In this document: one piece after another, positions 2,838 through 46,429 of the stretch
How positions within the stretch are numbered: position 1 is the stretch's first letter
How the letters are laid out: the number at the start of each line of letters is the position of its first letter
Origin: Cellvibrio sp. PSBB023
GTDB taxonomy: Bacteria > Pseudomonadota > Gammaproteobacteria > Pseudomonadales > Cellvibrionaceae
NCBI RefSeq assembly: GCF_002007605.1
Contig: NZ_CP019799.1
Span: 1,984,001 to 2,048,000 of the forward strand
Length of the DNA stretch: 64,000 bases
Direction of reading: 5' to 3'
The notes under the pieces: model-generated
Seen by the model: only the letters and a program-made list of their open reading frames with translations
What the model was told of the DNA's origin: nothing
The model's database searches: none
Translations under genes and position numbers: made by a program

Positions 2838-4327
2838 TTTGTATCACCTTTGAGACTTGGCTCACCGACCATATCAACCGCTTTGAAGATTGCCCGGGCT
2901 TTATTCATGGTTTCTTTCCACTCCAAGGCCGGCACCGAATCAGCAACAACACCTGCACCAGCCTGCACGTAGAGTTTGCCGTTCTTAATCACGGCTGTGC
3001 GAATGGCGATAGCCGTATCCATGTTGCCATTCCAGGCGATATAACCCACTGCGCCGCCATAGATACCGCGCTTTTCCGGCTCCAACTCATCGATAATTTC
3101 CATCGCACGAATTTTGGGGGCGCCGCTCAAGGTTCCCGCTGGCAGCGCTGCACGCAACACATCCATTGCCCGCAGCTCCTCTTTTAATGTCCCGGTGACA
3201 TTGGAGGTAATGTGCATCACATGGGAGTAACGCTCTACCACCATTTTATCTGTCAGTTTTACGCTGCCGATTTTGGCCACGCGCCCCACATCATTGCGCC
3301 CCAGATCGATCAACATTAAATGCTCGGCAATTTCCTTGGGATCATTGACCAGCTCAATTTCCAGCGCTTTATCTTCTTCTGCTGTGCGACCACGGCGACG
3401 GGTCCCAGCAATCGGACGCACAGTTACTTCACCATCTTCCAAACGCGCCAGAATCTCCGGGCTTGAACCTACAACGTGATGATCACCCAAATCCATGAAA
3501 TACATATAAGGCGAGGGATTCAGGTTGCGCAATGCGCGATACAGGTTAATTGGCTCACCTGCAAAATCAATAGACATACGCTGGGATACAACCACCTGCA
3601 TCGTATCGCCAGCCAAGATATAGTTTTTGATTTTATTGACGTAACCGTGAAAATTTTCTTCGCCGCAATTGGAAGTAAAATGAGGCTCGCTATCGCCATT
3701 GTTTCCGAGCGACAAACCAGGAGTTGCGGGAATTTCACCGCGCAGCTTCTGTTCCAGCTCATCCAGTCTGGCATTGGCTTTTACAAATGCGTTTTCAACA
3801 TCAGGATTGGCGTGAATAACAAAAATTAATTTGCCCGCCAAGTTGTCAAATACCAACACCTCATCTGACACGCTCAACAAAATATCAGGCGTACCTATCA
3901 CATCTTTGGGGGTACTCGCTTTTAAATGCGGCTCGACATAACGGATACAATCGTAAGCAAAGTACCCCACCAGACCACCGGTAAATCGTGGCAAGCCGGG
4001 TAGCTCTGGCGCGCGATAGCGCTCCTTAAAGGTCTCTACAAAAGCAAGCGCATCGGCACACTCATGGGTTTCAATAACCTCACCATCACGCTCTACGGTG
4101 ATTTGATCACCCAAGGCTTTTAATACTGTGCGTGCCGGCAAGCCAATCATGGAGTAGCGGCCCCATTTTTCACCGCCTTGTACAGATTCAAATAAGTAAG
4201 AGTAAGGACCGGCGGCGAGTTTGAGGTAAGACGAGAGCGGCGTATCCAAATCGGCCAGGACTTCGCGCATAACCGGAATGCGGTTGTAACCTTGCGCCGC
4301 TAATTGAGCAAACTGTTCGGAGTTCAT
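2834..4327 (-). CDS. trpE: Anthranilate synthase component I
   Basis: TrpE makes anthranilate from chorismate using ammonia from TrpG. At 497 residues it has the usual length. The N-terminal regulatory part has [10 protein letters not shown], resembling the serine-containing tryptophan-binding site of feedback-inhibited enzymes. The C-terminal chorismate-binding part has [17 protein letters not shown] and [10 protein letters not shown]. The chosen ATG (4327) has AAGG upstream; an in-frame TTG at 4363 has no support. In Pseudomonas the gene is preceded by rpe and gph; here rpe lies 325 bases upstream and gph is absent from the interval. Confidence 0.95.
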
Positions 4328-4652
4328 GGGATTACCTTTTGCTTGCCACCCAATCGTGTACAAGTCTTATCGTTATCGGAAATTCGATGTATTAATTTGA
4401 GTGCGCGGTTCCATTAACAGGAGCTCATTACGCAAACAGAGAGAAGGCAAGCCATACATCAACCTAAAAGTGACATATAGCAAGATGAACTAGCGGCGCC
4501 ATCGGGCGGCAAGGTGGGTAGCGCACTCTGTGATGATGGAAGTAGCGTTGTTCACGAGGATGGTTCCTGTTGATCGTGAGGGCAAGTGTACTGAATTAAT
4601 CTGCACATGCCTACCCTCATTCAACACCTTCATTCAACTTGGGAAACCCAAC
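4328..4652 (-). promoter_or_regulatory. trpE upstream region, no certain gene
   Basis: This 325-base interval separates rpe from trpE. On the minus strand a 47-codon reading frame runs from an ATG at 4633 to a TAG at 4490, or 21 codons from a GTG further in, and it ends in Arg-Trp-Arg-Arg. A leader-peptide role ahead of trpE is possible, but there is only one Trp codon and I see no clear terminator/antiterminator pair with a T-tract. The phosphoglycolate phosphatase gene that often sits here is not present. Confidence 0.3.
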
Positions 4653-5351
4653 TTAAACTTGCGCCAACTGTGCACGCATTTCTGCAATAACAGCCTTGTA
4701 ATCCGGCGCATTAAATATGGCTGAGCCAGCGACAAATGTATCTGCGCCAGCAGCAGCCACTTCGCCAATATTGGCAAGTCCAACACCGCCATCAACCTCC
4801 AGACGGATAGGCAAACCACTGGAGTCAATCAGGGTGCGTGCAGCGCGCAACTTATCCAGCACGTAGGGTATAAATTTCTGGCCACCAAAACCGGGGTTAA
4901 CAGACATTAATAACAGCATATCGAGCTTATCCATCACATAGTGAATCTGCTCCAGTGAACTGGCCGGGTTGAGCACCAAACCGGCCTTACAACCGCGATC
5001 TTTAATCAACTGCAATGAGCGATCCACATGGCGCGATGCCTCGGGATGAAACGTAATATAAGTTGCGCCAGCGTCTGCAAATTGAACGATAAGGTCATCA
5101 ACAGGCTCAACCATTAAATGCACGTCAATCGGTGCCGTTACACCGTAGTTACGCAGGGCCTTACATACCATTGGGCCGACAGTTAAATTTGGCACATAGT
5201 GATTATCCATCACATCAAAATGAATAAAGTCAGCACCCGCCTCCAATACAGCATCAACCTCTGCACCCAAACGTGCAAAGTCAGCTGAAAGAATGGACGG
5301 TGCAATTTTGTAATCCCGTTTAAAATCTTGCATACGACTCAAGTTCTTCAT
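4653..5351 (-). CDS. rpe: Ribulose-phosphate 3-epimerase
   Basis: Rpe interconverts ribulose-5-phosphate and xylulose-5-phosphate in the pentose phosphate pathway. The roughly 232-residue TIM barrel has [14 protein letters not shown], the metal-binding [33 protein letters not shown] and the phosphate-binding EVDGGVG. The ATG at 5351 is preceded by GGGAC at workable distance; a second ATG at 5333 is also possible. The gene lies upstream of trpE as in Pseudomonas. Confidence 0.95.
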
Positions 5352-28737: not shown

Positions 28738-29403
28738 TTACTTATGCTCGTGTGGTATTTCCATATGATCCTCCACACCGGGTTGGGATAGTTCAAACTC
28801 GGATGGATTTTTGTAGATCCAGCCACTGCCACTTACCGAGACCAGGGTGTAGCTTCCTTTGGGCGTAGTGACTGTGGCAAACACTGAGTTGGCGCCATAG
28901 GTCATCACCACCGGATAATCCGTTCCGTACCCATCCAGATAGCCGCGCCAGGAATAATCGCCATTAGGATTTTCATTGCTGCTGATGACGGTGGCATTCA
29001 CCAGAGCGCCTTCAGGTAATTCCAGCGCAACCTGCTCACCGGGCCCTGGAAACACCGGGGAATTCATATCGATAGTGACAGATTCATAGATCACCACACC
29101 TTCTGGTAAAGCGACAGCAGTTGAACCGGTATTGTTGCGCTGCCACGCCGGAACGGCACTTGATGCAGCTGCCGGTTTAACAGTTGGTTCAGTGATGTTT
29201 TCTGTGTTGGCGCTTGATACTGCTGCGCCAGAATGAACAGCAGCGGGAGGACGCTCACCGGATTGTGATTCAGCGGGCACTCTTGCCGGTGGCAATGCGC
29301 TGTAATCGCGCGGCGGCAATAAAAAATAGATGGCGCCAATAAGCACCAGAAGAATCAGTAAGAGCAAAAAATAACGGGGCTTGCCTTCAAATTGAGTTGT
29401 CAT
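28738..29403 (-). CDS. Membrane-anchored protein resembling a stand-alone M72 protease prodomain (copy A)
   Basis: The 221-residue protein has one N-terminal membrane segment (about residues 11-29), a Pro/Ala/Ser-rich spacer (30-100) and a conserved beta-rich block (105-208) with NPNGDYSWRGYLDGYG, YPVVMTYG, SVFATVTTP and GSGWIYKNP. The same block occurs in the gene at 40619-41347. From memory of the family, the block resembles the N-terminal propeptide of peptidyl-Asp (M72) metalloproteases, where W-x-G, a VVLTFG-type strand, VFG and GxxWL motifs precede the catalytic domain. No catalytic domain follows. I infer an inner-membrane-anchored periplasmic inhibitor or folding partner for the nearby proteases. 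Confidence 0.7.
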   Translation of the reverse strand: MTTQFEGKPRYFLLLLILLVLIGAIYFLLPPRDYSALPPARVPAESQSGERPPAAVHSGAAVSSANTENITEPTVKPAAASSAVPAWQRNNTGSTAVALPEGVVIYESVTIDMNSPVFPGPGEQVALELPEGALVNATVISSNENPNGDYSWRGYLDGYGTDYPVVMTYGANSVFATVTTPKGSYTLVSVSGSGWIYKNPSEFELSQPGVEDHMEIPHEHK

Positions 29404-29531
29404 CCGCGTCGTCCGTGTGTCATTACCAAATTAAAAAATAGAAAGGCCGCGCATTAAACACCGCCTTAAAAAATAGCAGCCTTAAAAAAATAGCCTAGCA
29501 GCAACATAGAATTGCGCAGGGGCGGCAACAT

Positions 29532-29554
29532 AAAAAAAGCGGCCCGAAGGCCGC
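29532..29554 (-). terminator. Terminator of the TSP3-repeat lipoprotein gene
   Basis: GCGGCC-TTCG-GGCCGC on the minus strand, a UUCG tetraloop stem, is followed by seven T residues, directly after the 29577 stop. Confidence 0.9.
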
Positions 29555-29576
29555 CTTTCTCTAGCCAGGCACCCAC

Positions 29577-32500
29577 CTATAAAGGTGGAGGCGCAACACA
29601 CAAGGCATGCACGTTCAAGTTGGCCAGCAAGCCCAGGACCGCGGCTTTTTCAATCTCCACCTGATTGAAGTTACTGGTGGCATTCATGTAGACCAACTGT
29701 TTGGTGGCGTCACCCGTGAGATTGAGCAATTGCAAACTCAACAAGCCACTGGACGCAGACGCTTGCTGCGGTACGCCACTCAAATAGGTAGTGACTTTCA
29801 AGTTGCTGAGCAAGCTCAGATCCAGCACGCCTACGGGTAGCGATACCAGGAACCCAACGCGTTTGGAACCGCTATAGGTTACCGGCGCCTGAACGCGACC
29901 CCATACCGAAGCGGCTACAGCTACCGGTGTCGCGAAGGTTGCTGCATCGTTAATGGTGGATGCCATATACGCCGGATTCGTCACGCCGCAGCCTATACAG
30001 AGCACGCCACGCAACCCTTGGGTTACGGTTGCACTACCCAACACTGGCTCGAACAGCTTGCCGGGTGCACAGGCGACATTTTCCAGCGTATCGCAGGCGT
30101 CACCAATGCCATCGCCATCAATATCGGACTGTGTCGGATTGGCAACCAATGGGCAATTGTCTAACGCGTTCAAGATGCCATCGTTATCGATGTCGGTATC
30201 GCACGCGTCACCGTAGGCGTCACCATCGGTATTCAGTTGGTCAGCGTTCGCCACCAGTGGACAGTTGTCCAGATTGTTGGGAACACCATCGCCATCCGAA
30301 TCCAAATCACAGGCATCGCCTATGCCATCACCGTCCGTATCCAACTGGCTGGGGTTGGCCACCAAGGGGCAGTTATCAATCAGGTTGAGTATGCCGTCGT
30401 TGTCCATATCCAGGTCGCACGCATCACCAATACCATCATGATCCGTGTCGGTTTGCGCCGGGTTGGCAATTAACGGGCAATTGTCTACATGATTGGCAAT
30501 ACCATCCCCATCATTGTCGGTTAGCGGGTCGCACGCATCGCCTATACCATCGCCATCCGTATCCAATTGGTTCGCGTTGGCATTGAGCGGACAATTGTCA
30601 GCGGCGTTGGTCACACCATCGCCATCAATGTCGGTATCACAGGCGTCGCCTATACCATCCTGATCTGTGTCTAACTGGCTGGGATTGGGGATCGCCACGC
30701 AATTGTCGAGCAGGTCGTTGACGCCATCACCGTCTATGTCGACCACACTATCGCAGGCATCGCCCACACCATTGCCATTGCTGTCCAACTGGTTGGGGTT
30801 GGCAATTAATGGACAGTTATCGGACACGTCCAATACGCCATCACCATCCTTATCGTGGTCGCACACGTTGCCTATACCATCCAGGTCAGTATCCAGTTGG
30901 TTGCTATTGGCATTGACCGGGCAGTTATCCACGGCATTTAACACACCATCACCGTCGACATCCGGGTCACAGGCATCGCCAACACCGTCGCCATCCAGAT
31001 CCAATTGGTTGCTGTTGGCGATCAATGGGCAGTTGTCCACCACATTGCTCACACCGTCGCCATCTATGTCAGGATCACACGCATTACCAACACCATCACC
31101 ATCGGTATCAGCCTGGTCAGGGTTGGCAACCAGCGGACAGTTATCACTGGAGTCATCGATAAGGTCGCCATCGCTATCCGTGTTGGCATCGCAGGCATCG
31201 CCTATGCCATCACCATCCGTATCTTGCTGCAATGGATTGGCAATGTTCGGGCAGTTATCCAGGACGTTCGGCACACCATCACCATCGCGGTCCGTGTCAC
31301 AGACATCGCCAATACCATCCCCATCGCTATCTGCTTGTGTGCTGTTGGGCATTGCAGGGCAATTATCGATGTTGTTGGGCACGTTATCGCCGTCCTGATC
31401 GTCGTCACAGAGGTTGCCAATGCCATCGCCGTCCATGTCGGCCTGATCCGGATTGAATACCTGCGGGCAGTTATCCACGGCATTGAGGATGCTATCGCCG
31501 TCGCGGTCGTTATCGCAGGCATCACCTATACCATCGCCGTCAGTGTCCTGTTGTGAGGCGTTGGCGACCAAGGGGCAATTGTCGATGTTATTCGGGATAC
31601 CATCGTTATCGTCATCCGTATCACAGGCGTTGCCTATGCCATCGCCGTCACTGTCCTCTTGCAATGGATTAGGCACAGCCGGGCAATTGTCCGTACCATC
31701 ATCAATACCATCGCCATCCGTATCAGTATTGTCATCGCAGGCATCGCCCAAACCATCCAAATCTGTATCGAGCTGGCTCGGGTTAGCAACAGAAGGACAA
31801 TTGTCGATGAGATTCAATACACCATCCCCATCGCGATCCGGGTCACAGGCATCACCGACACCATCGCCATCCTGATCAGCCTGGTTACTATTGGGCACCA
31901 GCGGGCAGTTATCTACACCGTTGAGCACAAGGTCACCGTCGATATCGTTATCGCAGGCGTCGCCTATGTCATCACCATCCTGATCCGCCTGGTTTGGATT
32001 CCCTACCAGGGGGCAGTTGTCGAGCACATTGAATACACCGTCGCCGTCGATATCGTTATCGCAACTATCGCCCACGCCATCCCCGTCTGAATCAAGCTGG
32101 CTGGGGTTGGCGATGGTGGGACAGTTATCCACCAGATCCAGGAAACCATCGCCATCCATATCCGGATCACAGACATCACCTATACCGTCACCATCGGCAT
32201 CGGCTTGATTGGCGTTCCAGATAAGCGGGCAATTGTCCAGGTTGTTGGCAATGCCATCGCCGTCGTTGTCGGTTAATACATCGCACACATCGCCAATACC
32301 GTCGCCGTCGCTATCCAACTGGTCAGCATTGGGGTTGAGTGGGCAATTGTCGGCGCCATTGGCAACGCCATCGCCATCCAGGTCGTTGTCGCAGGCATCA
32401 CCTATGCCGTCACCATCCGTATCCAACTGCGAGGGATTGGCGATGAGCGGGCAGTTGTCGAGCAGGTCATTCACACCGTCGCCGTCTATATCGACTACGC

Positions 32501-35429
32501 TGTCGCAGGCATCACCCACCCCGTTGCCATTGGTATCCAACTGGTTGGGGTTGGCAATCAGCGGGCAATTGTCGGAGATATCCAACACACCATCACCGTC
32601 GGCATCGCTGTCACACACATTACCAATGCCATCGCCATCGGTATCCAGCTGGTTGCTGTTGGCATTCACAGGACAGTTGTCGAGGGCGTTGTCCACGCCG
32701 TCGCCATCTATGTCGTTATCGCAGGCGTCACCTATACCATCACCATCCAGGTCGACCTGATTGCTGTTGGCGACTGATGGGCAGTTGTCTGCAACATTGT
32801 TAACACCATCGCCATCCAGGTCGTTATCGCAGGCATCGCCTATGCCGTCACCATCCGTATCCAACTGACTGGGATTGGCAATTAGCGGGCAGTTATCGGT
32901 GGCATCATCAATCAAGTCGCCATCAGTATCGGTGTTGGCATCGCAGGCATCACCAATACCATCGCCATCCGTATCCTCCTGAAGCGGGTTAGCGGTGATG
33001 GGACAGTTGTCTATGGCATTGTCCACACCATCACCGTCGCGGTCGGCGTCGCACACATCACCGATACCGTCACCATCCTGATCCGCCTGGTTGGTATTGG
33101 CAATGGCGGGACAGTTGTCGAGATTGTTGGTGACGTTATCGCCATCCAGGTCATCGTCACAGACATTGCCAATACCGTCGCCATCCAGGTCGGCCTGATC
33201 AGCGTTGGCGATTAACGGGCAGTTATCCACAGCATTGAGTATGTTGTCGCCATCCAGATCGGTATCGCAGGCATCACCAATACCATCACCGTCGGTATCC
33301 AACTGGCTGCTGTTGGCAACTAATGGGCAGTTGTCGAGGGTATTTGGAACACCATCGTTGTCATCGTCGTTGTCGCAAGCATTGCCGATACCATCGCCAT
33401 CGCTATCTTCTTGCAGGGGGTTGGCAATGTTGGGGCAATTATCCACGCCATCATCAATACCATCGCCGTCAGTGTCGAGGTTGCTGTCGCAAGCATCACC
33501 AATACCGTCGCCATCGGTATCCAACTGGTTGGGATTGGCTAGTGTTGGGCAGTTATCGACGTTATTGAGCACGCCATCGCCGTCACTATCGCTGTCACAG
33601 GCATCACCAATACCGTCACCATCCTGATCGGACTGGCTGCTATTGGAGACCAACGGGCAGTTATCCAGCGCATTGAGCACATTGTCGCCATCGACATCGT
33701 CATCACAGGCATCGCCAATGCCATCGCCATCCTGATCCGACTGGGATACGTTGCCCACCAGCGGACAGTTGTCGAGTGCATTGAATACGCCATCGCCATC
33801 CATGTCGTTATCGCAGCTATCACCTACACCATCGCCATCGGTATCCAACTGGTTGGGGTTGGCTATTGCCGGGCAATTGTCGAAGCCATCATCAATACCG
33901 TCGCCATCGGTGTCGGTATTGGTGTCACAGGCATCGCCTATGCCGTCTGCATCGCTGTCGATTTGTGTAGGGTTAGCGACTGTCGGGCAGTTATCGACCG
34001 CATCCAAAATGCCATCATTATCCCGGTCGTCATCACAGACATCGCCTATACCATCACCGTCCTGATCGGCCTGATTACTGTTGGATACCAGAGGACAGTT
34101 ATCGAGTGCATTGAGCACACTGTCGCCATCGATATCATCATCACAAGCATCACCAATGCCGTCGCCATCCTGATCTGACTGGGATGGGTTTGCGATTAGC
34201 GGACAGTTATCCAACGCATTCAATCTGCCGTCACCGTCGCTATCGCCATCACAGACATCGCCAATACCATCGCCATCCGCATCTTCCTGCAGTGGATTCG
34301 CCACGGCGGGGCAGTTGTCGACACCATCATCCACGCCATCCGCGTCGGTGTCAGTATTGTTATCGCAGGCATCACCTATTCCATCGCCATCGCCATCGGC
34401 CTGATTGGCGTTCGCGACGGCAGGGCAATTATCAAGGTCATTGAGCACGCCATCGCCATCCCGGTCGGCATCGCACACATCACCAATACCATCACCATCA
34501 GAATCCAATTGATTGGCGTTAGCGGTGACAGGGCAATTATCGACATCATTCAATACACCATCGCCATCCAGATCGTCATCACACACATCGCCAATGCCAT
34601 CGCCATCCAGGTCTGCCTGATTGCCATTGGCTGCATTCGGGCAATTATCCAGGGCGTTGAGCACACCATCGTTATCATTGTCATTATCACAGGCATCGCC
34701 TATGCCATCGCCATCAACATCTTCCTGCAGTGGGTTCACATTGAACGGGCAATTATCAACACCGTCATCAATGCCATCGCCATCAATATCTGTGTTGCTA
34801 TCGCAGGCATCGCCTATACCATCTGCATCGGTATCGGCCTGATCGGTATTGGCAATTAACGGGCAATTGTCATTGGCATTCAGCACAGTGTCGCCATCGC
34901 GATCCGCATCGCAAACATCACCAATGCCGTCATTGTCCAAATCGGCTTGATCAATGTTGGGAACAGCAGGACAGTTGTCGAGCGCATTCACAACAGTGTC
35001 GCCATCAATATCGCTATCGCACGCGTCACCGACACCATCATTATCGGTATCCAACTGATCGGCGTTAGCAACATTGGGACAATTATCCTGCCCATTGGGC
35101 ACACCGTCATTATCACTATCGCTAAAAGGTTGTTCGCCCGGTTCTGTAATCACCGAAGAAGACGCGCTACTTAACGACGAACTGCTTAACGACGAACTAT
35201 TTGAGGATGAGAATGAGCTAGGCACCTCACCGGGATTAGTAGGAGGCAAAGAAGAACTCGTTGATGACGAAACAGATGAAGCAGAAATAGATGAAGGAAT
35301 TGAAGAGGCAACAGTCGTTGAAGATGCCACCTGACTCGAATTATTTTTAGGGAAGCCATTGCCATCACCACCGCACGCCGTCAACCCGAGCATCGACACC
35401 AACAACGAAAACAATAGTATATTTTTCAT
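29577..35429 (-). CDS. Giant lipoprotein with 46 thrombospondin type 3 repeats
   Basis: About 1,950 residues. The N-terminus is a lipoprotein signal with lipobox LTAC (Cys near residue 19), followed by a Ser-rich linker to about residue 95. Residues roughly 104-1780 are 46 tandem thrombospondin type 3 repeats of about 36 residues, consensus DGDGVxNxxDNCPxxANxxQ then [12 protein letters not shown]; 45 have DNCP and one has DNCV. TSP3 repeats bind calcium and are rigid when loaded. A C-terminal domain of about 170 residues follows, with cysteines (CIGCG, ALCV), which I do not recognise. Likely an outer-membrane-anchored, calcium-stiffened stalk. The ATG at 35429 gives the best signal peptide; one at 35441 adds four residues. 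Confidence 0.9.
30090..35120 (-). repeat. TSP3 repeat array with nested 438-bp and 1,752-bp periods
   Basis: The coding repeat has three levels. The basic unit is about 36 codons. Every fourth unit in the 5' half carries an insertion of the [12 protein letters not shown] type, giving blocks of 438 bases: equivalent bases fall at 34750, 34312, 33874 and 33436. Sixteen units form a block of exactly 1,752 bases: 33874, 32122 and 30370 are equivalent positions. Protein units 12-27 match units 28-43 one by one, including the rarer variants [13 protein letters not shown] and [11 protein letters not shown]. Confidence 0.9.
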
Positions 35430-35465
35430 AACAGCCACCATGCGTATTGAATAGTTTAAAAACCA

Positions 35466-36500
35466 CTACCGAGTTTTAGCGCCAGAAATGACAAACTCGA
35501 CTCGTCGGTTTTTTGCCCTACCCTCTTCCGTTTGATTGTCTGCTACAGGCTGTTCCTCACCCATGCCATGCACAGTGATGCGATTAGCCTCAATGCCTTT
35601 TGACTGTAAATAATGTGCCACCACCTTCGCGCGCGTCTCGGACAAGCGTTGGTTGTACGCCGTCGCACCTCGCGCATCGGTATGCCCTGTGATGCTCACA
35701 ACCAGTGATGGATGCTGAATAAGTTGCGCAACAACCGGATCAATAGCCGCAGTGTTGCGGATAACGGATTTATCAAAATCAAATAAAGGACCACCGACCT
35801 GCTCATCAACAATAATGCGCTGATCTGCAACAGGCTCAGGCGCTGCTTGAACAGGTTGCACTTGTGGTGCCGGTTCAGGTGCAGCAACGACAGCCTCAGG
35901 TGTTTTGCGCAGGCGAGATGCAAAATTCCACACCAATGACAGGCCAACAAAATTGGCATTAGCACGCCCCATTTCGCTATCGCCCACTTGATCTATGTAT
36001 TGATATTCCAAACGAGTAGTCCAGCGATCTGACAGCGGTAATTCAATACCGCCACCAATTAACGGGCGCACACCTGAGCCATCAAGTTTGGTGGCACCCC
36101 CGGTTACTTCACCATCCCAATAGGCTGCACCGAGTTTTCCGTAAATACGGGTTTTCTGATAAAGCGGGTAAGATACCTTTAACGCCAAATCAATCTCGCG
36201 CAATTCTCCTTCCATAGTCGCACCGGGATATTTCGCCACAGAATCGCCGATATCATTCACGGACAATTCCAGAGCAAGGCGGCGATTAAAATCATATCCG
36301 GCAAAAACACCGTAGGCTGCTTCGTCTTTATCGCACACAAGCGCGGTATCGAGGCAGGAATTATCATTGTGTGAATAGCCAATACGCGCCCCCAAATAAC
36401 CGCTCGAATAAGGCTCAGTGCTATCAGAAAAAGCAGCATTCGATAAACCCAGCAATGCCACCCACGCAAAACACACTCTGGCCGAATATACATTTTTCAT
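35466..36500 (-). CDS. OmpA-family outer-membrane protein
   Basis: About 344 residues: a signal peptide (cut near residue 24), an N-terminal eight-stranded-type barrel starting GYLGARIGYSHND (about 28-195) and ending LSLVWNF, a Pro/Ala-rich hinge (APEPAPQVQPVQAAPEP), and a C-terminal OmpA peptidoglycan-binding domain from about residue 235 with LFDFDKSVI, ITGHTDARGATAYNQRLS and RVEFVISG. It lies 36 bases upstream of the TSP3 lipoprotein gene on the same strand, so the two are probably co-transcribed. ATG at 36500 with GGAA upstream. Confidence 0.92.
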   Translation of the reverse strand: MKNVYSARVCFAWVALLGLSNAAFSDSTEPYSSGYLGARIGYSHNDNSCLDTALVCDKDEAAYGVFAGYDFNRRLALELSVNDIGDSVAKYPGATMEGELREIDLALKVSYPLYQKTRIYGKLGAAYWDGEVTGGATKLDGSGVRPLIGGGIELPLSDRWTTRLEYQYIDQVGDSEMGRANANFVGLSLVWNFASRLRKTPEAVVAAPEPAPQVQPVQAAPEPVADQRIIVDEQVGGPLFDFDKSVIRNTAAIDPVVAQLIQHPSLVVSITGHTDARGATAYNQRLSETRAKVVAHYLQSKGIEANRITVHGMGEEQPVADNQTEEGRAKNRRVEFVISGAKTR

Positions 36501-37212
36501 AAGTATTCCCTCAGAACAGGCAAAGCAATGCCATGACGAAAATTCGCCAAAAAAATAAAAACCCAAAAAAAACTGGTTCAGAAAAACCCAACAAACGCTA
36601 TTGAAAAATCACCGGACAACATTTTTATTAGCAGGCAAGGTTTTTCCGGGCATCAAAAAATCAGGAAGAAGAAAAACAGGAAATCGAGGAAAAGCACGAA
36701 AAGGAAGTACAAAAGAAGTATTTTTTTAGAATAAGAGGAAACGATCTATTCACGTCAGTCACTCCTTACAATCCAGATTGCAATAACACCGCAGAGAAAA
36801 AATAAAAAACTCTGCAATCTTCCAAGACACAGAAATCATTGCTTTCAATTAGGAGACTAGCAATGGAGAAACACAAAGCAACCATGCAGATAGATCATAT
36901 TTCTATAAAAAAATAAAACCTTAAATTACATAACTAAAGAAATTAGCCAAAAAGGAAAATTAAACGACAAATTAAATAATTTTAAAATTAAAAAAATAAT
37001 TTAACTTTTTAATTTATCGAATGAGATTTAACAGCGAGGCGCGAAAAACATAAAACAGGATGTCGCCAAAATAAGAAAAACCATCGACATTAAAAATAAA
37101 AAAATAAATTACATCACCTTACAGAAAAACAACGAAGCTCTGTTGGCACATAAAATAATCACAAAGCAGCTTATAACAGCGCCCATAAAATATGGGCGCG
37201 TCATTTATTAAT
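36501..37212. other. AT-rich intergenic region upstream of the OmpA gene
   Basis: About 710 bases, clearly richer in A and T than its surroundings. It holds a hairpin at about 36792-36815 (GCAGAG/CTCTGC with an A-rich loop), a 17-codon plus-strand frame at 36863-36916 with AGGAG seven bases upstream, and a 9-bp perfect hairpin at 37179-37199 after the protease gene. I see no conventional gene. Confidence 0.5.
37179..37199 (-). terminator. Hairpin after protease A gene
   Basis: Perfect nine-base arms GCGCCCATA/TATGGGCGC with a three-base loop lie just downstream of the 37213 stop. There is no good T-tract, so its efficiency is uncertain. Confidence 0.45.
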
Positions 37213-38259
37213 TTATGCAGAAACCGGAACCCTGGCGCGGCGCGCAAATACCAATACACTCAACAACAGCGTTAAAAAGAGAGGGAATGCACCGCCTCCA
37301 CCACCTGAGCTGCCGCCACCTGAACCTCCGCTTACCGCGCCACCTGTCGCTACTGAAGAGGTAGCACTGGGCAGGTTATCGCCGGTGGCATTTGCTGCAC
37401 GGCTGGAAGACTGCATTGAACTGGTTGCCACACTCGAAGCAGAGCTTGCACTTGCAGCCGCTGCAAAAAATTTCGCAATTTGCGGGCCGGTAATATTCAA
37501 TACATACACCGCATCTGCGCCGCTTGCAGTATTAGTACGATCGACACCGCAAGGTGAACCCTTACAGTTCAGCGTCGGGCTGGAAAATTTGTAAACCTTG
37601 CCGTCCCAATAATCCACATTAAATGCGCTTTGATAAGCCATGATGGTTGTGAATTTATTGTCTTCACCGTGCCCCAATGCGTAATCAAACGTGGCGCCTT
37701 TACCATCCTGTTTGCGCGAATGACGCAACCCCATGTTGTGCCCCAACTCATGCGCAGTCATAAAATCGCCACAACCATCAAAGGCAATATGGGCAAACAT
37801 GAAGTCTTTGAGTGAGGGATCAGAAAAGTCCCCTTGGGTATCCGTGCCGCCAGTCCAGGCCAAACCGCAATTGCCATGGATCGCCTTATAAGGGCGATAC
37901 AGAATCACCATATCGGCATTGGCCTGCGCACGCGCAGCAGCTACCGGGTTAAAAGCCGGGTCGCGATTGAAAGTAATATCCTGCAAGGCCGTTTCTGCAG
38001 AGTTTTCATCGGTGTAATCCACCATTAAGGTGCTGGCGACACGCACCTCAAGATCGACACCACTGTCCAGGTAAATTTGGTTGGTAACCTGAAAGAGTTG
38101 ATTGATGCGTGTAGTAGGGTCACCGCCATAGTTGTCGGCCGTGCCCTTGGTGTAGACCACCAGTACATCAATCACATTGTTGGCAGCGAAAGCAGGAACA
38201 GCAATCAAAACAAAAAAGCTCGCCATCATATGCGTAACGCTTTTCAGGATAGTGCGCAT
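37213..38259 (-). CDS. Secreted M72/reprolysin-like metalloprotease with GlyGly-CTERM tail (protease A)
   Basis: 348 residues. A signal peptide (about 1-25) is followed at once by the catalytic domain starting NVIDVLVVYTKG; the long pro-region usual for peptidyl-Asp metalloproteases is absent. The zinc site HELGHNMGLRH is at about 170-180 and the Met-turn is in TIMAYQS near 208. A Ser-rich linker leads to a Gly-rich stretch, a hydrophobic helix (FPLFLTLLLSVLVFA) and an RRAR tail, which together form a GlyGly-CTERM signal processed by rhombosortase in other gammaproteobacteria. Catalytic domain is paralogous to the gene at 38969-40465. Predicted surface-anchored or released protease; cleavage specificity is unknown. 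Confidence 0.85.
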   Translation of the reverse strand: MRTILKSVTHMMASFFVLIAVPAFAANNVIDVLVVYTKGTADNYGGDPTTRINQLFQVTNQIYLDSGVDLEVRVASTLMVDYTDENSAETALQDITFNRDPAFNPVAAARAQANADMVILYRPYKAIHGNCGLAWTGGTDTQGDFSDPSLKDFMFAHIAFDGCGDFMTAHELGHNMGLRHSRKQDGKGATFDYALGHGEDNKFTTIMAYQSAFNVDYWDGKVYKFSSPTLNCKGSPCGVDRTNTASGADAVYVLNITGPQIAKFFAAAASASSASSVATSSMQSSSRAANATGDNLPSATSSVATGGAVSGGSGGGSSGGGGGAFPLFLTLLLSVLVFARRARVPVSA

Positions 38260-38968
38260 AAAAATATTCTCGTAACGTTAAGTAAATGAGCCCTCCTTGA
38301 TGTGTTGGTGAATGCCTGGGCTGTGTCTCACTCGTCTCTGAGGCACAGCGGTGCTTTTTTTGGCGCGCAGAAGCCCGTCCCAAAAAGCGTGAAAACTTTT
38401 GAGTGATGCGAATGTTCTTTCCGAGGGTTTGACGAGCAGCTATAGCGACGGGACAACCTTACATTCTGGCTATAGCGATACCACAGGGATCGACAGTGAT
38501 TCCTGATAGTCCTTATGACGCTGGGGGAAAATCTTCAGCAGCAAGTGCCTTTTGTGCGAGAGCCTTTCGGCTTCCATTTTGATAGGCGAAAACCTACGCC
38601 AGCTAGTCGGCAAATTTCGGTATTGCGGCATAGCCTTCGCGCGCAAATTACCGAAAAACAACAACCTCACTTGCAAGCACCACAAAAACACAACAGCTCA
38701 CAAGTTAATCAAATTGTAGAGGATTTATGCGCCAAAATCCATTTTTTATTACTTATCTAAAAATAAAATCTATTTGTAAGAGTTTTTTTGCTGTTTTGTT
38801 ATAAGAATAGTCAATTGTAGGTAGAAATACTCATCGCGAAAAAATATAAGGCGTAGTTATACGAAGGCGGTAAATTTTGGCTCACTTGGCGCCTTAATTT
38901 TTTTATTGCAATAAAAAACCCGGCCTGAGCCGGGTTAAGACAAAGTTGCACGCAGGTTCAAACGGGTA
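38260..38968. other. Intergenic region between the two protease genes with palindromic sequence
   Basis: About 710 bases. Contents: a hairpin at about 38319-38349 (GCTGTGTCTCA paired with TGAGGCACAGC) in the protease A leader; a ten-base direct repeat GCTATAGCGA at 38439-38448 and 38469-38478; an inverted repeat TTTCGGTA/TACCGAAA at 38615-38622 and 38649-38656; and a terminator at 38912-38937. Short frames on both strands (73-81 codons) look like translations of a non-coding element. No gene is called. Confidence 0.5.
38912..38937 (-). terminator. Terminator of protease B gene
   Basis: AACCCGGC-CTGA-GCCGGGTT forms an eight-base stem with a T6 tract on the minus strand, about 30 bases after the protease B stop. 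Confidence 0.85.
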
Positions 38969-40465
38969 CTATTTTTTAGGCATGGCTTTCAAGGCAGCTT
39001 TGTATTGTGCTTGCAAGTTATTGTAAATCGCCAGGGCGTTAGCAACAGCGGCAGTCAGGCCCGCTGTTCTGGCTTTTTCAGTGGCCAAGGCAATAGTCGC
39101 GGCATTGGCTTTTACTGTCGCTGCATTTACCGCGTTAGTGGCGGGAACCAATTGTTGCTGGGCAGCGAGGGTATCGGTGCGCGCTTTCACCGCTTGTTCC
39201 AGCAAGAGGTTGTAACTCTTGACCTGATTGTTGTACTGATTCAGCTTGGCCGATTTAGCCGCCGCCGTAGTGGCCGTGAGATAGGCCGATAAGCTGGCAT
39301 TCAACTGCACCTGCAGAGCATTCAGGCGTGCCACCAGCGAGTTGTAGTTGGCGAGAGCTTTCTCATAATTTTTAGTGGCAGTAGTCAGCGCAGTGGTGGC
39401 AGCCGTCAGCGCTGTTTTTGCTGTCCGCTCAGCGGCTGTTTTTTCGGTAATGGCCAGCTTATTGGCATTGAGGGCGGCCACTGCCGCAACATGATTCAAG
39501 CGTGCGGATTCTACTTTTGCCGCTAATTCGGCCAACCCTGTACCAGAAACACTACTGGCCGAACTCGAAGACTTTGACGATGAACTGGCCAGACTTGAAC
39601 TCGACAGGCTTGAACTGGATAGACTTGTACTCGAGCTGGTCGCTGAGGACGAGCTGGCGGGCGCACCTGCATAATAGGCCGCGATCTGGGGTGCAGCTAT
39701 ATTCAGCGCATAACGCGCATCGGCACCGGTTGAGGTATTGTTGCGATCAACACCGCAAGGCTGATTCTTGCAGGTCATCAAATCCGGGTTGGAAAATTTG
39801 TAGACCTTACCATCCCAGTAATCCACATTGAATTCGCTTTGGTAGGCCATGATTGTGGTGAAGGAATTCATCACCCCATGCCCCAATGCATAGTGGAAAG
39901 TACCACCTGCGCCATCCTGTTTGCGCGAATGTTTTAACCCCATGTTGTGCCCCAACTCATGGGCAGTCACAAAGTCGCCACACGAATTTATCGCTACGTG
40001 GGCAAACATATAGGCTTTATGGCCAGCAATGAACACGCCATTGGCACTGCCAGCAACCCAGGCGACACCACAACTCCCATGGGAGTTCATATAGGGGCGA
40101 TAGAACACCACCATGTCCGCTTTCGCTTTTTCGCGCGCGGCGGCTACACCATTAAATGCGGGGTTCTGGTTGTAGGTAATATCGTTCAAGGCTGTTTCAG
40201 CATTGTTATCGTCGGTGTAGTTCACCTGCAAGGTGGCAGCTACGCGAATTTCCAAATCCACGCCGCTGTCTGCGTATATCTGGTTGCTGACCTGAAAGAG
40301 TTGGTTGATCCGGGTTGTTGGATTACCGCCATACAAATTGGCGACTCCGTTGGTATAGACCACCAGCACATCGATAACATTGGAGGCGGCCAGCAGCGAG
40401 GGTGACGCAGCGGATATCAGGGCGATAGCCGCTACGCGAATAAGGTTTTGCACTGTTGTTTTCAT
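38969..40465 (-). CDS. Secreted M72/reprolysin-like metalloprotease with C-terminal alanine-rich coiled coil (protease B)
   Basis: 498 residues. Signal peptide (about 1-27), then the catalytic domain starting NVIDVLVVYTNG without a prodomain; zinc site HELGHNMGLKH at about 169-179 and Met-turn TIMAYQSEF. A Ser-rich linker (about 275-305) leads to about 190 residues of Ala/Thr/Leu/Lys-rich heptad-like sequence (for example LAELAAKVESARLNH, LVARLNALQVQLNASL) predicted as coiled coil. The catalytic domain is closely similar to protease A, but the tail is entirely different. The upstream neighbour at 40619 encodes a prodomain-like membrane protein, so the two may be expressed together. Confidence 0.85.
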   Translation of the reverse strand: MKTTVQNLIRVAAIALISAASPSLLAASNVIDVLVVYTNGVANLYGGNPTTRINQLFQVSNQIYADSGVDLEIRVAATLQVNYTDDNNAETALNDITYNQNPAFNGVAAAREKAKADMVVFYRPYMNSHGSCGVAWVAGSANGVFIAGHKAYMFAHVAINSCGDFVTAHELGHNMGLKHSRKQDGAGGTFHYALGHGVMNSFTTIMAYQSEFNVDYWDGKVYKFSNPDLMTCKNQPCGVDRNNTSTGADARYALNIAAPQIAAYYAGAPASSSSATSSSTSLSSSSLSSSSLASSSSKSSSSASSVSGTGLAELAAKVESARLNHVAAVAALNANKLAITEKTAAERTAKTALTAATTALTTATKNYEKALANYNSLVARLNALQVQLNASLSAYLTATTAAAKSAKLNQYNNQVKSYNLLLEQAVKARTDTLAAQQQLVPATNAVNAATVKANAATIALATEKARTAGLTAAVANALAIYNNLQAQYKAALKAMPKK

Positions 40466-40618
40466 GGAATGATTTCTCTGTTGACTTTACTGAAAACCCT
40501 CCGTGATTGACAAACCCGGAACCCACCGGGAGTTTGCGCGTATCCATCAAAGCCTTGCCTTACCGTTTTAGCCTTTCATCATGACTCCTCGCCTCGCAGC
40601 GATTAACACCACAGAGAA

Positions 40619-41347
40619 TCAAGGGTGATCCTGTGGAATTTCAAGATAATCCCTGGCACCCGGCGTAGATAACTCAAATTCCGAGGGATTTTTATAAATC
40701 CAGCCACTTCCCTTAATCGACTCCAGGGTATAGCTGCCCGAGGGAGTAGTGACGGTGGCGAACACCGAACTACCGCCATAGGTCATCACTACTGGATACT
40801 CATCGGCGCCATAGCCATCAAGATGGCCGCGCCAGGTGTAGTCGCCGTTGGGGTTGGTGGTACTGGTTTTGACATTCACTTTCAAGCGCTCACCGCCCGG
40901 TAAGGTCAGGGTGGTTTGCTGCCCTGCCTCGGGAAATACAGGGTTATCCATATCGACCGACACAGGTTCATACAGAGATACGCCGTTTGGCACAGGCATA
41001 GACGGGGTGGCGGCAGTCGAATCTGCCATGCGCCAGGCATCGGGCGCGGTAGTCTGATCTGGTCGTGGAGGCTCCGCCGGCGGAGCGGGTTTAGTGGCTG
41101 GCGCAGCCAGAATACCTTGGGCACGCGCCAATTCTTTTCTGGCATCCGCTAACAGGGGATTGGCAGCGGGATCGGTCATCAAGGGGGGCGACTCTTCCAG
41201 CATTTGCTGCAGCCGTTGATCTGGGACTAACAAAGTCTCTTCACGGGTGATGCGATGCACCACAAACAACAATACAAACAACACCAAAAAAACCACTGCA
41301 ACCACCAAGGAGGGGCGCATAAGATTACCGGGAAGGAAGGTTTTCAT
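40619..41347 (-). CDS. Membrane-anchored protein resembling a stand-alone M72 protease prodomain (copy B)
   Basis: 242 residues: one N-terminal membrane segment (about 12-31), a charged and Pro-rich spacer (32-120), and the conserved block (125-230) with NPNGDYTWRGHLDGYG, EYPVVMTYG, SVFATVTTP, GSYTLES and GSGWIYKNP. It is a paralogue of the gene at 28738-29403. The motif order matches what I recall of M72 propeptides, but no peptidase domain follows. It lies about 150 bases upstream of protease B on the same strand. ATG at 41347. Confidence 0.7.
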   Translation of the reverse strand: MKTFLPGNLMRPSLVVAVVFLVLFVLLFVVHRITREETLLVPDQRLQQMLEESPPLMTDPAANPLLADARKELARAQGILAAPATKPAPPAEPPRPDQTTAPDAWRMADSTAATPSMPVPNGVSLYEPVSVDMDNPVFPEAGQQTTLTLPGGERLKVNVKTSTTNPNGDYTWRGHLDGYGADEYPVVMTYGGSSVFATVTTPSGSYTLESIKGSGWIYKNPSEFELSTPGARDYLEIPQDHP

Positions 41348-42865: not shown

Positions 42866-43292
42866 AGATAGTTCCTGAGTTAACCGCGCACCATGAGTAT
42901 GGCCGAGGTGTTGATGGGAAGGTGAAAAAGGGAGGCGCGCATTGTACACCATGCCCCCAAATAGCTTCCATGCAAAAAACTCATACACAGCGTTAAATCG
43001 ATTCATGCCAGTGCCTGATGTACTATCACCCGACGAGTCGCAACGCACCAAAAGAGCACAAAAACCCGTTATTTTCGGCGAAAACGACCCTGTGTCACCC
43101 CCTGCCATAGCCGACCAGAATCACTAAACATCGGCGATATGACGCCAAAAACAACATTATTTGCGCCCTACTCTGCATTTCCGTGAATTTTTAGCGATAA
43201 CACGCCACTTGGGCCTCGCTTTTGCAACACAGGTAACAGCTACAGGTTTTATTCCTCGTGATCCGGGGTATAGATCATTAAGGACAGTACAC
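42866..43292. other. Divergent promoter region, glyA/exopolysaccharide operon
   Basis: About 430 bases between glyA (minus) and the Wza-type gene (plus). A possible sigma-70-type box TATAGAT lies near 43270, 16 bases after TTTTAT, ahead of the exopolysaccharide operon. I see no recognisable riboswitch upstream of glyA and no gene. Confidence 0.35.
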
Positions 43293-44123
43293 ATGATGCG
43301 TTGTTATCCCCTTGGCCGCTTTTGTTTCTCCCTCACCACAGCCCTTCTGCTGCTGTGCAGCGCGCTGGTATGGGCAGAAACCTCAACCGCTCCGCGCAGC
43401 TATGTGATTGGCAGCGGCGATGAAATTCGCATTACGGTATTCGGCCAACAAGAGCTCACCGCTGAAGTTCAAGTCAGTGCCGCTGGCACAGTGCAAGTTC
43501 CTCTATTAGGCACACTGGCGATTGCCGGTAAAAATGCTGCCGACGCCGCACAAATGATCGCCGGGCGCTATGAGGCCGGTAACTTTCTCAAAAATGCCCA
43601 GGTCAACCTGCTGGTCACCAAGTATCGCAGCCAGGTGGTGGCCATCCTCGGCCGTGTCAACAGCCCCGGGCGATTAGTATTGGAAGGCCCTACCAGCTTG
43701 ACCCAGGCACTGGCATGGGCCGGTGGTATCGCCCCCAGCGGCAGCGAGCGCCTGATCCTCACCCGCCCCCTTGCCAATGGCCGCCAGGAGCGCACCGAAT
43801 ACGATTTACAGCAGATGCTCAATTACGACGCCGGCCAGCAACCAACAGTCTGGCTGCGGGATGGCGACACGATTTATGTCCCCAATGCGGGCCGCTTTTA
43901 CATTAATGGCGAGGTGCACTCGCCGGGTATGTATCCCTTGGATCGCCCGCTGAATATCCGACAGGCACTCAGTGCTGGCGGCGGCCCTACCGCCCGTGCC
44001 AGCGATAGCAAAGTGAAGGTATTTCGGCAGGCAGCGGACGGTTCGGTGCAGGAGTTAACCGCCAAACCCAATGATCAGGTGATGGATGGCGATGTACTGG
44101 TCGTGAGGGAAAGCTTGTTCTAG
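43293..44123 (+). CDS. Wza/GumB/EpsE-type polysaccharide export protein
   Basis: First gene of the exopolysaccharide operon (about 276 aa). A signal peptide (CFSLTTALLLLCSALVWA) precedes a Poly_export domain (YVIGSGDEIRITVFGQ, LLGTLAIAGKNAADAA) and two SLBB domains (VAILGRVNSPGRLVLEG and FYINGEVHSPGMYPLD). Such proteins form the outer-membrane secretion channel for capsule or xanthan-type polymers; no lipobox cysteine is obvious. ATG at 43293 (or 43296) with AGGA upstream; the longer frame to 43161 has no support. Confidence 0.92.
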   Translation: MMRCYPLGRFCFSLTTALLLLCSALVWAETSTAPRSYVIGSGDEIRITVFGQQELTAEVQVSAAGTVQVPLLGTLAIAGKNAADAAQMIAGRYEAGNFLKNAQVNLLVTKYRSQVVAILGRVNSPGRLVLEGPTSLTQALAWAGGIAPSGSERLILTRPLANGRQERTEYDLQQMLNYDAGQQPTVWLRDGDTIYVPNAGRFYINGEVHSPGMYPLDRPLNIRQALSAGGGPTARASDSKVKVFRQAADGSVQELTAKPNDQVMDGDVLVVRESLF

Positions 44124-44149
44124 CCCTCATCAACACCCGGGAGCAAGGC

Positions 44150-45493
44150 ATGAATCTGAATAGCTTGATAGGCATTTTACTGGCGCGGAAGTGGGCGATT
44201 CTGGCCAGTTGTGCACTCGCCTTAGTCGCTGCGCTGGCGATTATCCTGCTCACCCCCAAATCCTACACGGCGACGATTGACCTGCTGGTGGACAGCCGCG
44301 GGCTTGATCCGATCAGCGGCCAATCGCAACCGACGCGCATGACCGGCGCTTACCTAGCAACCCAGAGCGACATCATCCGCAGCCGCAATGTAGCCAGCAA
44401 AGTGATCGAGCAACTGGCGCTGGGCAGCTCCCCGGCGATGATCAGTGCCGCTCGGCTGACCGGCAACCCGGAGAGCGATCAGCGCCGTATGCTCAGTTTT
44501 CTGGCCAAAGGGCTGGTAGTGATCCCCAAACGCGACAGCAGTGTCTTGAGCATTGCCTTCAAGGCACAAGACCCAACCCTGGCCGCCCAGCTCGCGGACG
44601 CCTTTGCCGAGGCTTATATCTACACCAACCTTGAGCTGCGCATTGAACCCGCGAAGCAGACCAGCCAGTGGTACAACCAGCAACTTGCCGCACTACGGCA
44701 AGAGTTGATCGACAAGCAAAATGCGCTTTCCACCTATCAGGAAGAGCACGGCATACTCGCCTCCTCTGACCGACTGGATCTGGAATCCAGCAAGCTCGCC
44801 GATCTGTCGTCCATGCTGATGGCGGTACAAAACGAGCGTTTGAACTCCCAAAGCCGCAGCGACCAGATTGCCAACACCAAGCGCGGCCAACTGGAGACCC
44901 GCGCGCTGGATAACCCCCAAATGCAAAAGCTGGCAACCGACCTGGCGCAGGCGCAGGCGCGCCTGACCGAGTTGGCAACCCAGGTGGGCGAAAACCACCC
45001 CCAATACCGCCAGGCGCTCAGTGAAGTGGGTGCACTCAAGCAGCAAATGAACCGCATGCTGGAATTGATTAGCAGTAGCTTGCAGTCGTCGGTTGAGCTG
45101 TCCCAAGCCCGCGCTGATCAATTAAAAGCCGAGCTGGCGCAGCAAAAGGAGCTGGTACTGCAACTCAGCCGCAATCGCAATGAGCTGACCCTGCTCAAGC
45201 AGGAGGTGGATAACACCCAGGCCGCCTATGACGCCGCGCTCGCCCGTTCGGTACAAACCCGACTGGAGAGTCAAATCGCCGCGACTGACATAGCTGTACT
45301 CAACAGCGCGCTGGTGCCAACACAACCAACCTCCCCCAAACCCCTGCTGATCACCCTGCTTGCCACTCTGGCAGGCTTGTTGTTTGGCATTGCGATGGCG
45401 CTGTGCTGGGAGTGGCTGGATCAACGGATTCGCAGTGTGACGGACCTTGAACAGGGGCTAGGCCTACCGGTACTTGCCTATATCCCTCGCTGA
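44150..45493 (+). CDS. Wzz/GumC/EpsF-type chain length determinant
   Basis: The 447-residue co-polymerase has a cytoplasmic/inner-membrane N-terminal helix (about 14-33), a Wzz domain (TATIDLLVDSRGLDP), a long periplasmic coiled-coil region (about 170-380) and a second membrane helix (about 408-428) preceded by PTSPKPLL. In Wzx/Wzy systems this protein sets chain length and connects to the Wza channel. It ends shortly after the second helix, with no fused kinase; the kinase-like gene follows. Confidence 0.92.
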   Translation: MNLNSLIGILLARKWAILASCALALVAALAIILLTPKSYTATIDLLVDSRGLDPISGQSQPTRMTGAYLATQSDIIRSRNVASKVIEQLALGSSPAMISAARLTGNPESDQRRMLSFLAKGLVVIPKRDSSVLSIAFKAQDPTLAAQLADAFAEAYIYTNLELRIEPAKQTSQWYNQQLAALRQELIDKQNALSTYQEEHGILASSDRLDLESSKLADLSSMLMAVQNERLNSQSRSDQIANTKRGQLETRALDNPQMQKLATDLAQAQARLTELATQVGENHPQYRQALSEVGALKQQMNRMLELISSSLQSSVELSQARADQLKAELAQQKELVLQLSRNRNELTLLKQEVDNTQAAYDAALARSVQTRLESQIAATDIAVLNSALVPTQPTSPKPLLITLLATLAGLLFGIAMALCWEWLDQRIRSVTDLEQGLGLPVLAYIPR

Positions 45494-45541
45494 TAAACAC
45501 AAGATGCTGACACCCATAGGAAGTACCCAGGAGGTCGCAAG

Positions 45542-46429
45542 ATGAATGATCGCTTACAGATACTGGACCAGCAGACGCTCGCCACAACCACCGCACTGAG
45601 CCAGTCCACGCGCATGGGGCCTATGCTGGTCGCCATGGGCAAGCTCAGCCCCGCTGACCTGAATGCCATTCTCGCGATGCAAAAGAAACAGGGACTGCGT
45701 TTTGGCGATGCGGCCTTGCATCTGGGTTTGGTCAGCGCCGACGACATTAATGCCATTCTGGCCGAACAGTTTGCCTATACCCAGACACCGGCAGCCTCCA
45801 GCAAACTCGACCATCGCCTGAGCGCGCTGTTCCAACCGGATAGCAACCAGGCCGAAGCCCTGCGCAGCCTGCGCAGTGAACTGATGCTGCGCTACTTTAA
45901 TCCCCAGCCGCAGCGCGCTGTGGCACTGGTGAGCACCGAAGATGCCGAGCGCACAGCACTCACCACTGCCAACCTGGCCATCAGTTTTGCGCAACTTGGG
46001 CTGCGCACCTTGCTGATCGACAGCAACCTACGCGCCCCGCAGCTCAACCGGTTATTTCATTTACCCGAGCACGCGCCAGGGCTATCGGACTGGATTGCCG
46101 AGCGCACCTCCGTCGCCCCCAGTGCCATAGAGCAGGTGCGTTCACTGTGGGTGCTCCCCGCAGGCACCCGCGCACCCAACCCCCAGGAGTTATTGGCCAG
46201 CAAGCACTATCAGGAGCGGGTTAATCCGCTGATACAGCAGTTTGATATCACCCTGATCAATACCGCGCCCATGGATTCCAATCGCGATGCCCAACTGGTC
46301 GCTGCCCAAGCCGGGGCGGCGCTACTCATCGCCCGGCAACACGTCACCCACACCAAGGCCCTGCTCGCTATTAGCAGCCGCTTCCGTGAATTGGGCGTAC
46401 GCCTGCTGGGCACAGCCCTGCTCGGTTAA
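45542..46429 (+). CDS. EpsG/CapB-like ParA-fold protein with N-terminal MshEN-like domain, apparent pseudokinase
   Basis: 295 residues. Residues about 25-82 look like a type II secretion ATPase N-terminal (MshEN-like) domain: LGPMLVAMGKLSPADL followed by LGLVSADDINAILAEQF. The rest resembles bacterial tyrosine kinases of the EpsG/Wzc family, but the nucleotide motifs are degenerate: Walker A reads VSTEDAERTALTTANLA with no GKS/T, the A' motif is LLIDSNLRAP, and Walker B is LINTAP with Asp replaced by Asn. There is no C-terminal tyrosine cluster. It probably keeps a structural or signalling role. Strong ribosome site GGAGG. Confidence 0.82.
   Translation: MNDRLQILDQQTLATTTALSQSTRMGPMLVAMGKLSPADLNAILAMQKKQGLRFGDAALHLGLVSADDINAILAEQFAYTQTPAASSKLDHRLSALFQPDSNQAEALRSLRSELMLRYFNPQPQRAVALVSTEDAERTALTTANLAISFAQLGLRTLLIDSNLRAPQLNRLFHLPEHAPGLSDWIAERTSVAPSAIEQVRSLWVLPAGTRAPNPQELLASKHYQERVNPLIQQFDITLINTAPMDSNRDAQLVAAQAGAALLIARQHVTHTKALLAISSRFRELGVRLLGTALLG

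Follow-up and report, generated by a model that had tools for sequence, protein, structure and literature searches.

What is the role of two small membrane-anchored proteins encoded beside a pair of secreted metalloproteases that lack prodomains of their own? The question is raised by a gene cluster in a 64,000-nucleotide stretch of Cellvibrio sp. PSBB023 (contig NZ_CP019799.1, positions 1,984,001 to 2,048,000; hereafter the window), where two prodomain-less M72 proteases (A and B) lie together with their partners (small proteins A and B), one of the proteases perhaps being surface-anchored. The small proteins probably represent separately encoded metzincin prodomains, tethered to the inner membrane, that would act on the exported proteases. 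They carry a domain that is homologous to M72 prodomains and has the CpaB fold, they co-occur with prodomain-less proteases, and their distribution is complementary to that of prodomains encoded in the same chain as the protease (in cis). The biology proposed by an earlier sequence-only reading of the window is largely right, while its claim to novelty is wrong.

The four open reading frames (ORFs) on which that reading rested lie where it had placed them, all on the minus strand (Table 1). Aligned over 143 residues (81-220 of A and 99-241 of B; E 1e-59), the small proteins show 59% identity, and the block that they share is real and slightly longer than the approximately 105 residues first described. 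As had been proposed, each is anchored by a hydrophobic 19-mer near its N terminus (mean Kyte-Doolittle hydropathy 2.96 and 3.18) and neither contains a Pfam peptidase domain. The structural model of small protein A comprises a helix (residues 9-28), a low-confidence linker and a beta domain (about residues 101-200) with blocks of 85 to 96 in predicted local distance difference test (pLDDT). The weak Pfam matches that small protein B gave, Big_3 among them (E 0.09 at best), were taken as chance.

The two proteases show 66% identity across 270 residues. Both possess a Reprolysin-type catalytic domain, an intact HExxHxxGxxH motif and a Met-turn, which places them in the M72 / Mep72-like class. 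The catalytic domain follows directly on the signal peptide, the Reprolysin_5 match beginning at residue 27/28. The NCBIfam model of Mep72 (NF052434) recognizes both (E 7.2e-55 and 1e-53; 186.6 and 182.8 bits), below its equivalog cut-off of 645 bits and over profile positions 1-250 of 573 only. By eye, the C termini of protease A and of four orthologues resemble GlyGly-CTERM tails, with a run of Gly followed by a hydrophobic stretch and then basic residues, and such a tail may anchor protease A at the surface. The genome encodes a rhombosortase (TIGR03902) and the GspD secretin of type II secretion, both over their cut-offs; the NCBIfam scan of protease A listed no GlyGly-CTERM domain model.

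Comparison of profile with profile bears out the suspected similarity to propeptides (E 5.7e-12; 98 aligned columns, reaching the region of a conserved Asp). A homologue search with a small protein, in which the 7997 candidates with most shared words were scored, gave 262 proteins; all 120 among the matches listed bear the label PF27177, and small protein A shares 96% and 90% identity with two proteins so labelled (P0001 and P0002). The search with protease B gave 650 proteins, with PF27177 in 0 of 120 among the matches listed, and that with L018, a relative in which both domains form one chain, yielded 150, where PF27177 accompanies Reprolysin models in 65 of 120 among the matches listed. One curated domain therefore occurs both alone and in cis. 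A hidden Markov model (HMM) built from 85 separately encoded (trans) proteins only matches 68 of 120 proteins of the L018 search at E < 1e-3. These matches sit ahead of HExxH, taken as a text pattern, in 65 cases, the other three proteins being without the pattern. At the same threshold the trans HMM matches none of 120 shuffled sequences, 120 reversed sequences and 120 prodomain-less proteases; the last set gave 26 matches below E 1, the best at 0.012. With hhalign, E values of 9.8e-9 and 4.9e-5 (probability 68 for the latter) were obtained against G249, where prodomain and protease share one 698-residue frame, and against L018. The match to a more distant single-chain protease (L033) is weak (probability 3, E 0.015), and a negative control, the small-protein profile against the catalytic-domain profile, gave probability 0.7 and E 0.08. 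The small proteins thus match cis prodomains significantly in sequence, as members of the M72 prodomain family. The single chain of G249 (L020:1330-3411) consists of an N-terminal extension, the prodomain, a long coiled-coil-like insert and the M72 domain.

The fold comparison is in line with this similarity: the model of small protein A matches the CpaB fold. Only the fold search revealed it, PDB sequence searches with a single small protein and with the A4 profile not having found CpaB. The prodomain fold of fragilysin-3 and ADAM17, taken alone, matches the small-protein model weakly, and prodomain plus catalytic domain of profragilysin-3 and ADAM17 superpose jointly on the model of a single-chain relative. 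A fold missing from the structure match lists is not thereby excluded.

Beyond the beta domain, the trans proteins share a short tail. The column of D212 (small protein A) is invariant in the 85-row trans alignment, with Asp in 85/85 trans tails, and an Asp is found in 75 of 77 cis segments. The motif D-x(0,1)-[LIMVF]-x(1,2)-P, defined after inspection of the tails, is present in 85/85 trans tails and 66/77 cis segments, above every shuffle. A cysteine switch is disfavoured since there is no conserved Cys; if any prodomain residue binds the zinc, it is for that reason likelier to be this Asp (or, in trans tails, a neighbouring His) than a Cys, which makes the Asp a candidate aspartate switch. 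Profragilysin is an aspartate-switch zymogen. The prodomains of profragilysin-3 and ADAM17 act in cis and are removed by proteolysis.

The sequence-only reading knew of no described M72 case, but two such pairs are on record, BamI-Mep72 of Pseudomonas aeruginosa (PMC4334185) and CpaB-CpaA (PMC4713064, PMC7542363, PDB 6O38). Co-transcription of bamI with mep72 is documented; expression of Mep72 is toxic to E. coli, the toxicity is relieved by BamI, which binds Mep72, and Mep72 exits via the Xcp type II system with no activity found on generic substrates (PMC4334185). CpaA of Acinetobacter belongs to MEROPS family M72 (PMC7542363), its secretion requires CpaB (PMC4713064), and the tail of CpaB reportedly occupies the active site of CpaA (PMC7542363). 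What is established for relatives is that BamI forms a complex with its protease and relieves toxicity, and that CpaB is needed for secretion and inserts its tail into the active site; these properties would extend to the window by analogy.

Small proteins A and B are remote relatives of both partners. They match the CpaB model NF033512 (27.9 and 22.4 bits, E 2e-6 and 1e-4) and the BamI model NF052435 (22.3 and 21.0 bits, E 9.6e-5 and 2.5e-4) below the equivalog cut-offs of 90 and 180 bits; a third small protein of the genome also remains below the CpaB cut-off (55.7 bits, E 6.1e-15). The BamI model matches partners in L068, L086, L111 and L064 at 1e-8 to 2e-10, and the trans HMM those in L068, L064 and L071 at 1e-22, 3e-34 and 3e-16. 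When two BamI sequences are combined with four of these intermediate partners, the resulting profile aligns with the small-protein profile (E 1.2e-22) and with the cis profile (E 2.1e-10). The link to BamI rests on these intermediates, because the two BamI sequences alone gave a weak hhalign match to the small-protein profile (probability 4, E 0.0099). With an N-terminal membrane helix, a periplasmic beta domain and a gene beside a prodomain-less M72 protease, the small proteins constitute a subfamily of CpaB/BamI-like partners for such proteases that lies below both cut-offs. Small protein A is the exception in distance (7.8 kb from protease A) because other genes of the protease A cassette lie between.

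As in BamI-Mep72, a partner gene lies directly upstream of a protease, and both window proteases match the Mep72 model over its catalytic part. They differ from Mep72, which has two C-terminal carbohydrate-binding domains according to the portion of PMC4334185 covered. The same gene order is seen in Pseudomonas otitidis (L088:2774-3442, 4183-4917), where two divergent BamI-Mep72 pairs stand side by side, all four genes over NCBIfam cut-offs. The catalytic domain of CpaA is C-terminal (model positions about 375-575 of 575), whereas the window proteases carry theirs at the N terminus, with a GlyGly-CTERM-like tail (A) or a coiled coil (B) behind it. Single-chain M72-like zymogens (PF27177 plus Reprolysin; for example in Arenicella and Methylococcaceae) combine the same prodomain and catalytic families in one chain, without a separate partner gene.

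Lipase-specific foldases (Lif) have an all-helical fold and a different client. They are membrane-anchored steric chaperones for a type II substrate (PMC4713064), and the small proteins would work in a comparable way. It is unlikely that the small proteins are, like Lif, secretion or folding chaperones only and not inhibitors. The requirement of CpaB for CpaA secretion (PMC4713064), the NCBIfam label of secretion chaperone, the membrane anchor together with a type II system in the genome, and the assumption in PMC7542363 that the CpaB tail is displaced by substrate all agree with such a role. However, the homology to zymogen prodomains, the conserved motif beyond the beta domain and the CpaB tail reported in the active site (PMC7542363) suggest that the cleft is blocked as well, and BamI relieves the toxicity of its protease (PMC4334185). 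In the literature consulted, CpaB is treated as an SRPBCC/Aha1-like chaperone and BamI as an AprI-like inhibitor; a prodomain link was not found there beyond a "similar to zymogens" sentence in the covered part of PMC7542363. The CpaA-CpaB structure paper falls outside this coverage, and a comparison of the CpaB/BamI fold with prodomains may already be in print.

Small proteins and proteases co-occur, as had been predicted. Small proteins are found in 19 of 21 genomes of the genus and Reprolysin_4 in 19, G277 and G278 being without both; in the sets searched, small proteins were not common in genomes lacking the proteases. A same-strand protease match lies within 2 kb of 36/39 small-protein matches, and 36/45 protease matches are so paired. 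The nine unpaired ones are five A-type cassettes, two weak matches (E 1e-4 and 2e-4), G291:C180 and G286:C17. The genome itself has three Reprolysin_4 matches and three full small proteins. The third pair (L004) lies elsewhere, the protease, which has a CBM6 tail, preceding the small protein. A fourth small-protein match covers profile positions 1-65 only (E 0.06).

Ten loci of relatives were compared with the window cluster. Protease A, an OmpA-family protein, a thrombospondin type 3 (TSP3) protein and a small protein follow one another in the same order in G281 (L144) and G289 (L147); because this order recurs, small protein A is assigned to protease A despite the 7.8 kb. In G289 a single small protein separates cassette A from protease B, which raises the possibility that the two proteases share a partner. 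G275 has its protease-OmpA-TSP3 part at another site, where no small-protein match is near, and a lone small protein flanked by nrdR and glyA. The TSP3 frame of G282 ends on one contig while its tail, a small protein and protease B begin another, perhaps because the assembly is broken there; L073 seems to represent this stretch too. The position of small protein A after the OmpA and TSP3 genes rather than beside its protease, kept in G281 and G289, might suggest a coincidental neighbourhood in which the small proteins serve another function, for example with these surface proteins. This is the least probable of the explanations considered, given that 36/39 small-protein matches of the genus have a protease match no more than 2 kb away, that both genes are present in 19/21 genomes and both absent in 2/21, and that small protein A is 59% identical to small protein B, which abuts protease B. 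The OmpA-family protein beside protease A is kept in four related genomes. The single-chain M72 relatives L018 and L021 bear TSP3 repeats at their own C terminus, which together with the TSP3 protein of the cassette hints at a shared surface role.

In wider samples, cis and trans prodomains are distributed in a complementary way. A sample of 274 genomes of the class has Reprolysin_4 in 40 and the small-protein profile in three: the genome itself, G249 (in cis) and G029, whose match (E 2.3e-4, positions 12-89 only) covers the linker and not the beta domain and was left out of the partner count. Of at least 139 relatives in named genomes, 80 loci were retained. With the window, L004 and three loci included because they show a cis prodomain (L018, L020, L021), they yielded 92 catalytic frames, partial later-domain frames having been dropped. 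Of these, 35 carry a cis prodomain (with E around 0.01 for some), 18 have a trans neighbour no more than 3 kb away, none has both and 39 have neither; in 28 of the 39 the N terminus is long and may contain a prodomain that escapes the HMMs. Protease A counts here as trans via small protein B, 2.3 kb away. Among frames off contig ends with a script-picked start, a trans neighbour accompanies 12/18 with a short N terminus versus 4/62 with a long one (Fisher p 4e-7, the rows not being independent); one short row with a cis match (L110) probably has a misplaced start. Library matches identify partners for three of the five short-N-terminus proteases without an HMM-detected one: L088 twice (BamI over cut-off, 253 and 225 bits) and L117 (CpaB model below cut-off, E 6.2e-6). 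L084 has an adjacent 177-residue ORF, a look-alike by eye with no library match, and no partner was found in the examined stretch of L073, an A-type cassette.

The absence of frames with both forms (0/92) and the grouping of the small proteins with cis prodomains of the same family make it very improbable that they are immunity-type inhibitors unrelated by descent to prodomains and recruited beside proteases, despite the adjacency of the genes and the analogy with AprI, the inhibitor of AprA, drawn by the BamI authors (PMC4334185, part covered). An unrooted tree of 52 catalytic domains (34 cis, 17 trans, 1 unlabelled), which excludes the rows with neither form, L078 and short rows and in which many deep branches are weak, requires at least five cis/trans changes. 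In Candidatus Endonucleobacter (L078:4511-5738) an M72 gene spread over two frames lies beside a short prodomain-like frame and looks decayed. In two Planctomycetota loci (L079, L090) a prodomain-like frame adjoins an M72 protease, suggesting that the split form is not confined to Gammaproteobacteria.

We infer the following course for the prodomain reading. The protease would enter the periplasm without its own prodomain, and the partner would dock on the catalytic domain as the cis prodomain does in relatives, help to fold it and close the cleft via its flexible C-terminal tail, the conserved Asp possibly facing the zinc. When the type II system exports the protease, the partner would stay behind at the inner membrane, so that activation would result from separation in space and not from propeptide cleavage. 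After export, protease A would perhaps be anchored at the surface through its GlyGly-CTERM-like tail and protease B released. Each small protein would presumably serve its own protease.

Table 1. Features of the protease cluster (positions in the window)
Feature	Position	Strand	Basis or remark
Small protein B, probable membrane-anchored trans prodomain	40619..41347	-	directly upstream of protease B
Small protein B, membrane anchor, about residues 12-30	41258..41314	-	hydrophobicity
Small protein B, prodomain-like beta domain	40682..40987	-	alignment to small protein A
Small protein B, conserved tail Asp D233, candidate zinc-facing switch residue	40649..40651	-	alignment, tail motif; putative role
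Protease B: signal peptide, Mep72-like M72 metzincin domain, Ser-rich linker, coiled-coil-like tail (by eye)	38969..40465	-	
Protease B, zinc-binding motif HELGHNMGLKH	39929..39961	-	
Protease A: signal peptide, Mep72-like M72 metzincin domain, GlyGly-CTERM-like tail	37213..38259	-	
Protease A, zinc-binding motif HELGHNMGLRH	37720..37752	-	
Protease A, GlyGly-CTERM-like tail: Gly run, hydrophobic stretch, basic residues	37216..37311	-	by eye
OmpA-family outer-membrane protein, protease A cassette member	35466..36566	-	
Lipoprotein-like protein with 46 TSP3 stretches, protease A cassette member	29577..35441	-	lipobox by eye
Small protein A, probable membrane-anchored trans prodomain, end of protease A cassette	28738..29403	-	
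Small protein A, membrane anchor, predicted helix 9-28	29320..29379	-	model, hydrophobicity
Small protein A, beta domain, CpaB fold and putative metzincin prodomain fold	28804..29094	-	model, fold search
Small protein A, conserved tail Asp D212, candidate switch residue	28768..28770	-	85-row alignment; putative role

On the minus strand the genes follow the order glyA, small protein B, protease B, protease A, OmpA-family protein, TSP3 protein, small protein A, nrdR and ribD, the names glyA, nrdR and ribD having been assigned by eye. The listed TTG start of the OmpA-family gene is probably too early, the ATG at 36500 being likelier. The TSP3 protein has 1954 residues, and its C-terminal part is kept in relatives. 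Genes of polysaccharide export and chain-length type (43161-46429; Wza/Wzc-like by eye) begin beyond glyA, and similar neighbours adjoin glyA in L147, L148 and L069.

More broadly, we lean slightly towards the view that all chaperones and inhibitors of the CpaB/BamI type are metzincin prodomains, akin in fold to those of ADAM17 and fragilysin, which have moved between cis and trans several times. They would have a free tail with an aspartate switch, and their proteases would be activated by leaving the membrane-bound prodomain, not by proteolysis. This would join CpaB, BamI and cis prodomains, otherwise treated apart, and would predict for which secreted metalloproteases expression depends on a separate partner: where the cis prodomain is missing, a membrane-anchored one should be looked for. 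The cluster would exemplify a zymogen whose activation depends on where it is and not on being cleaved.

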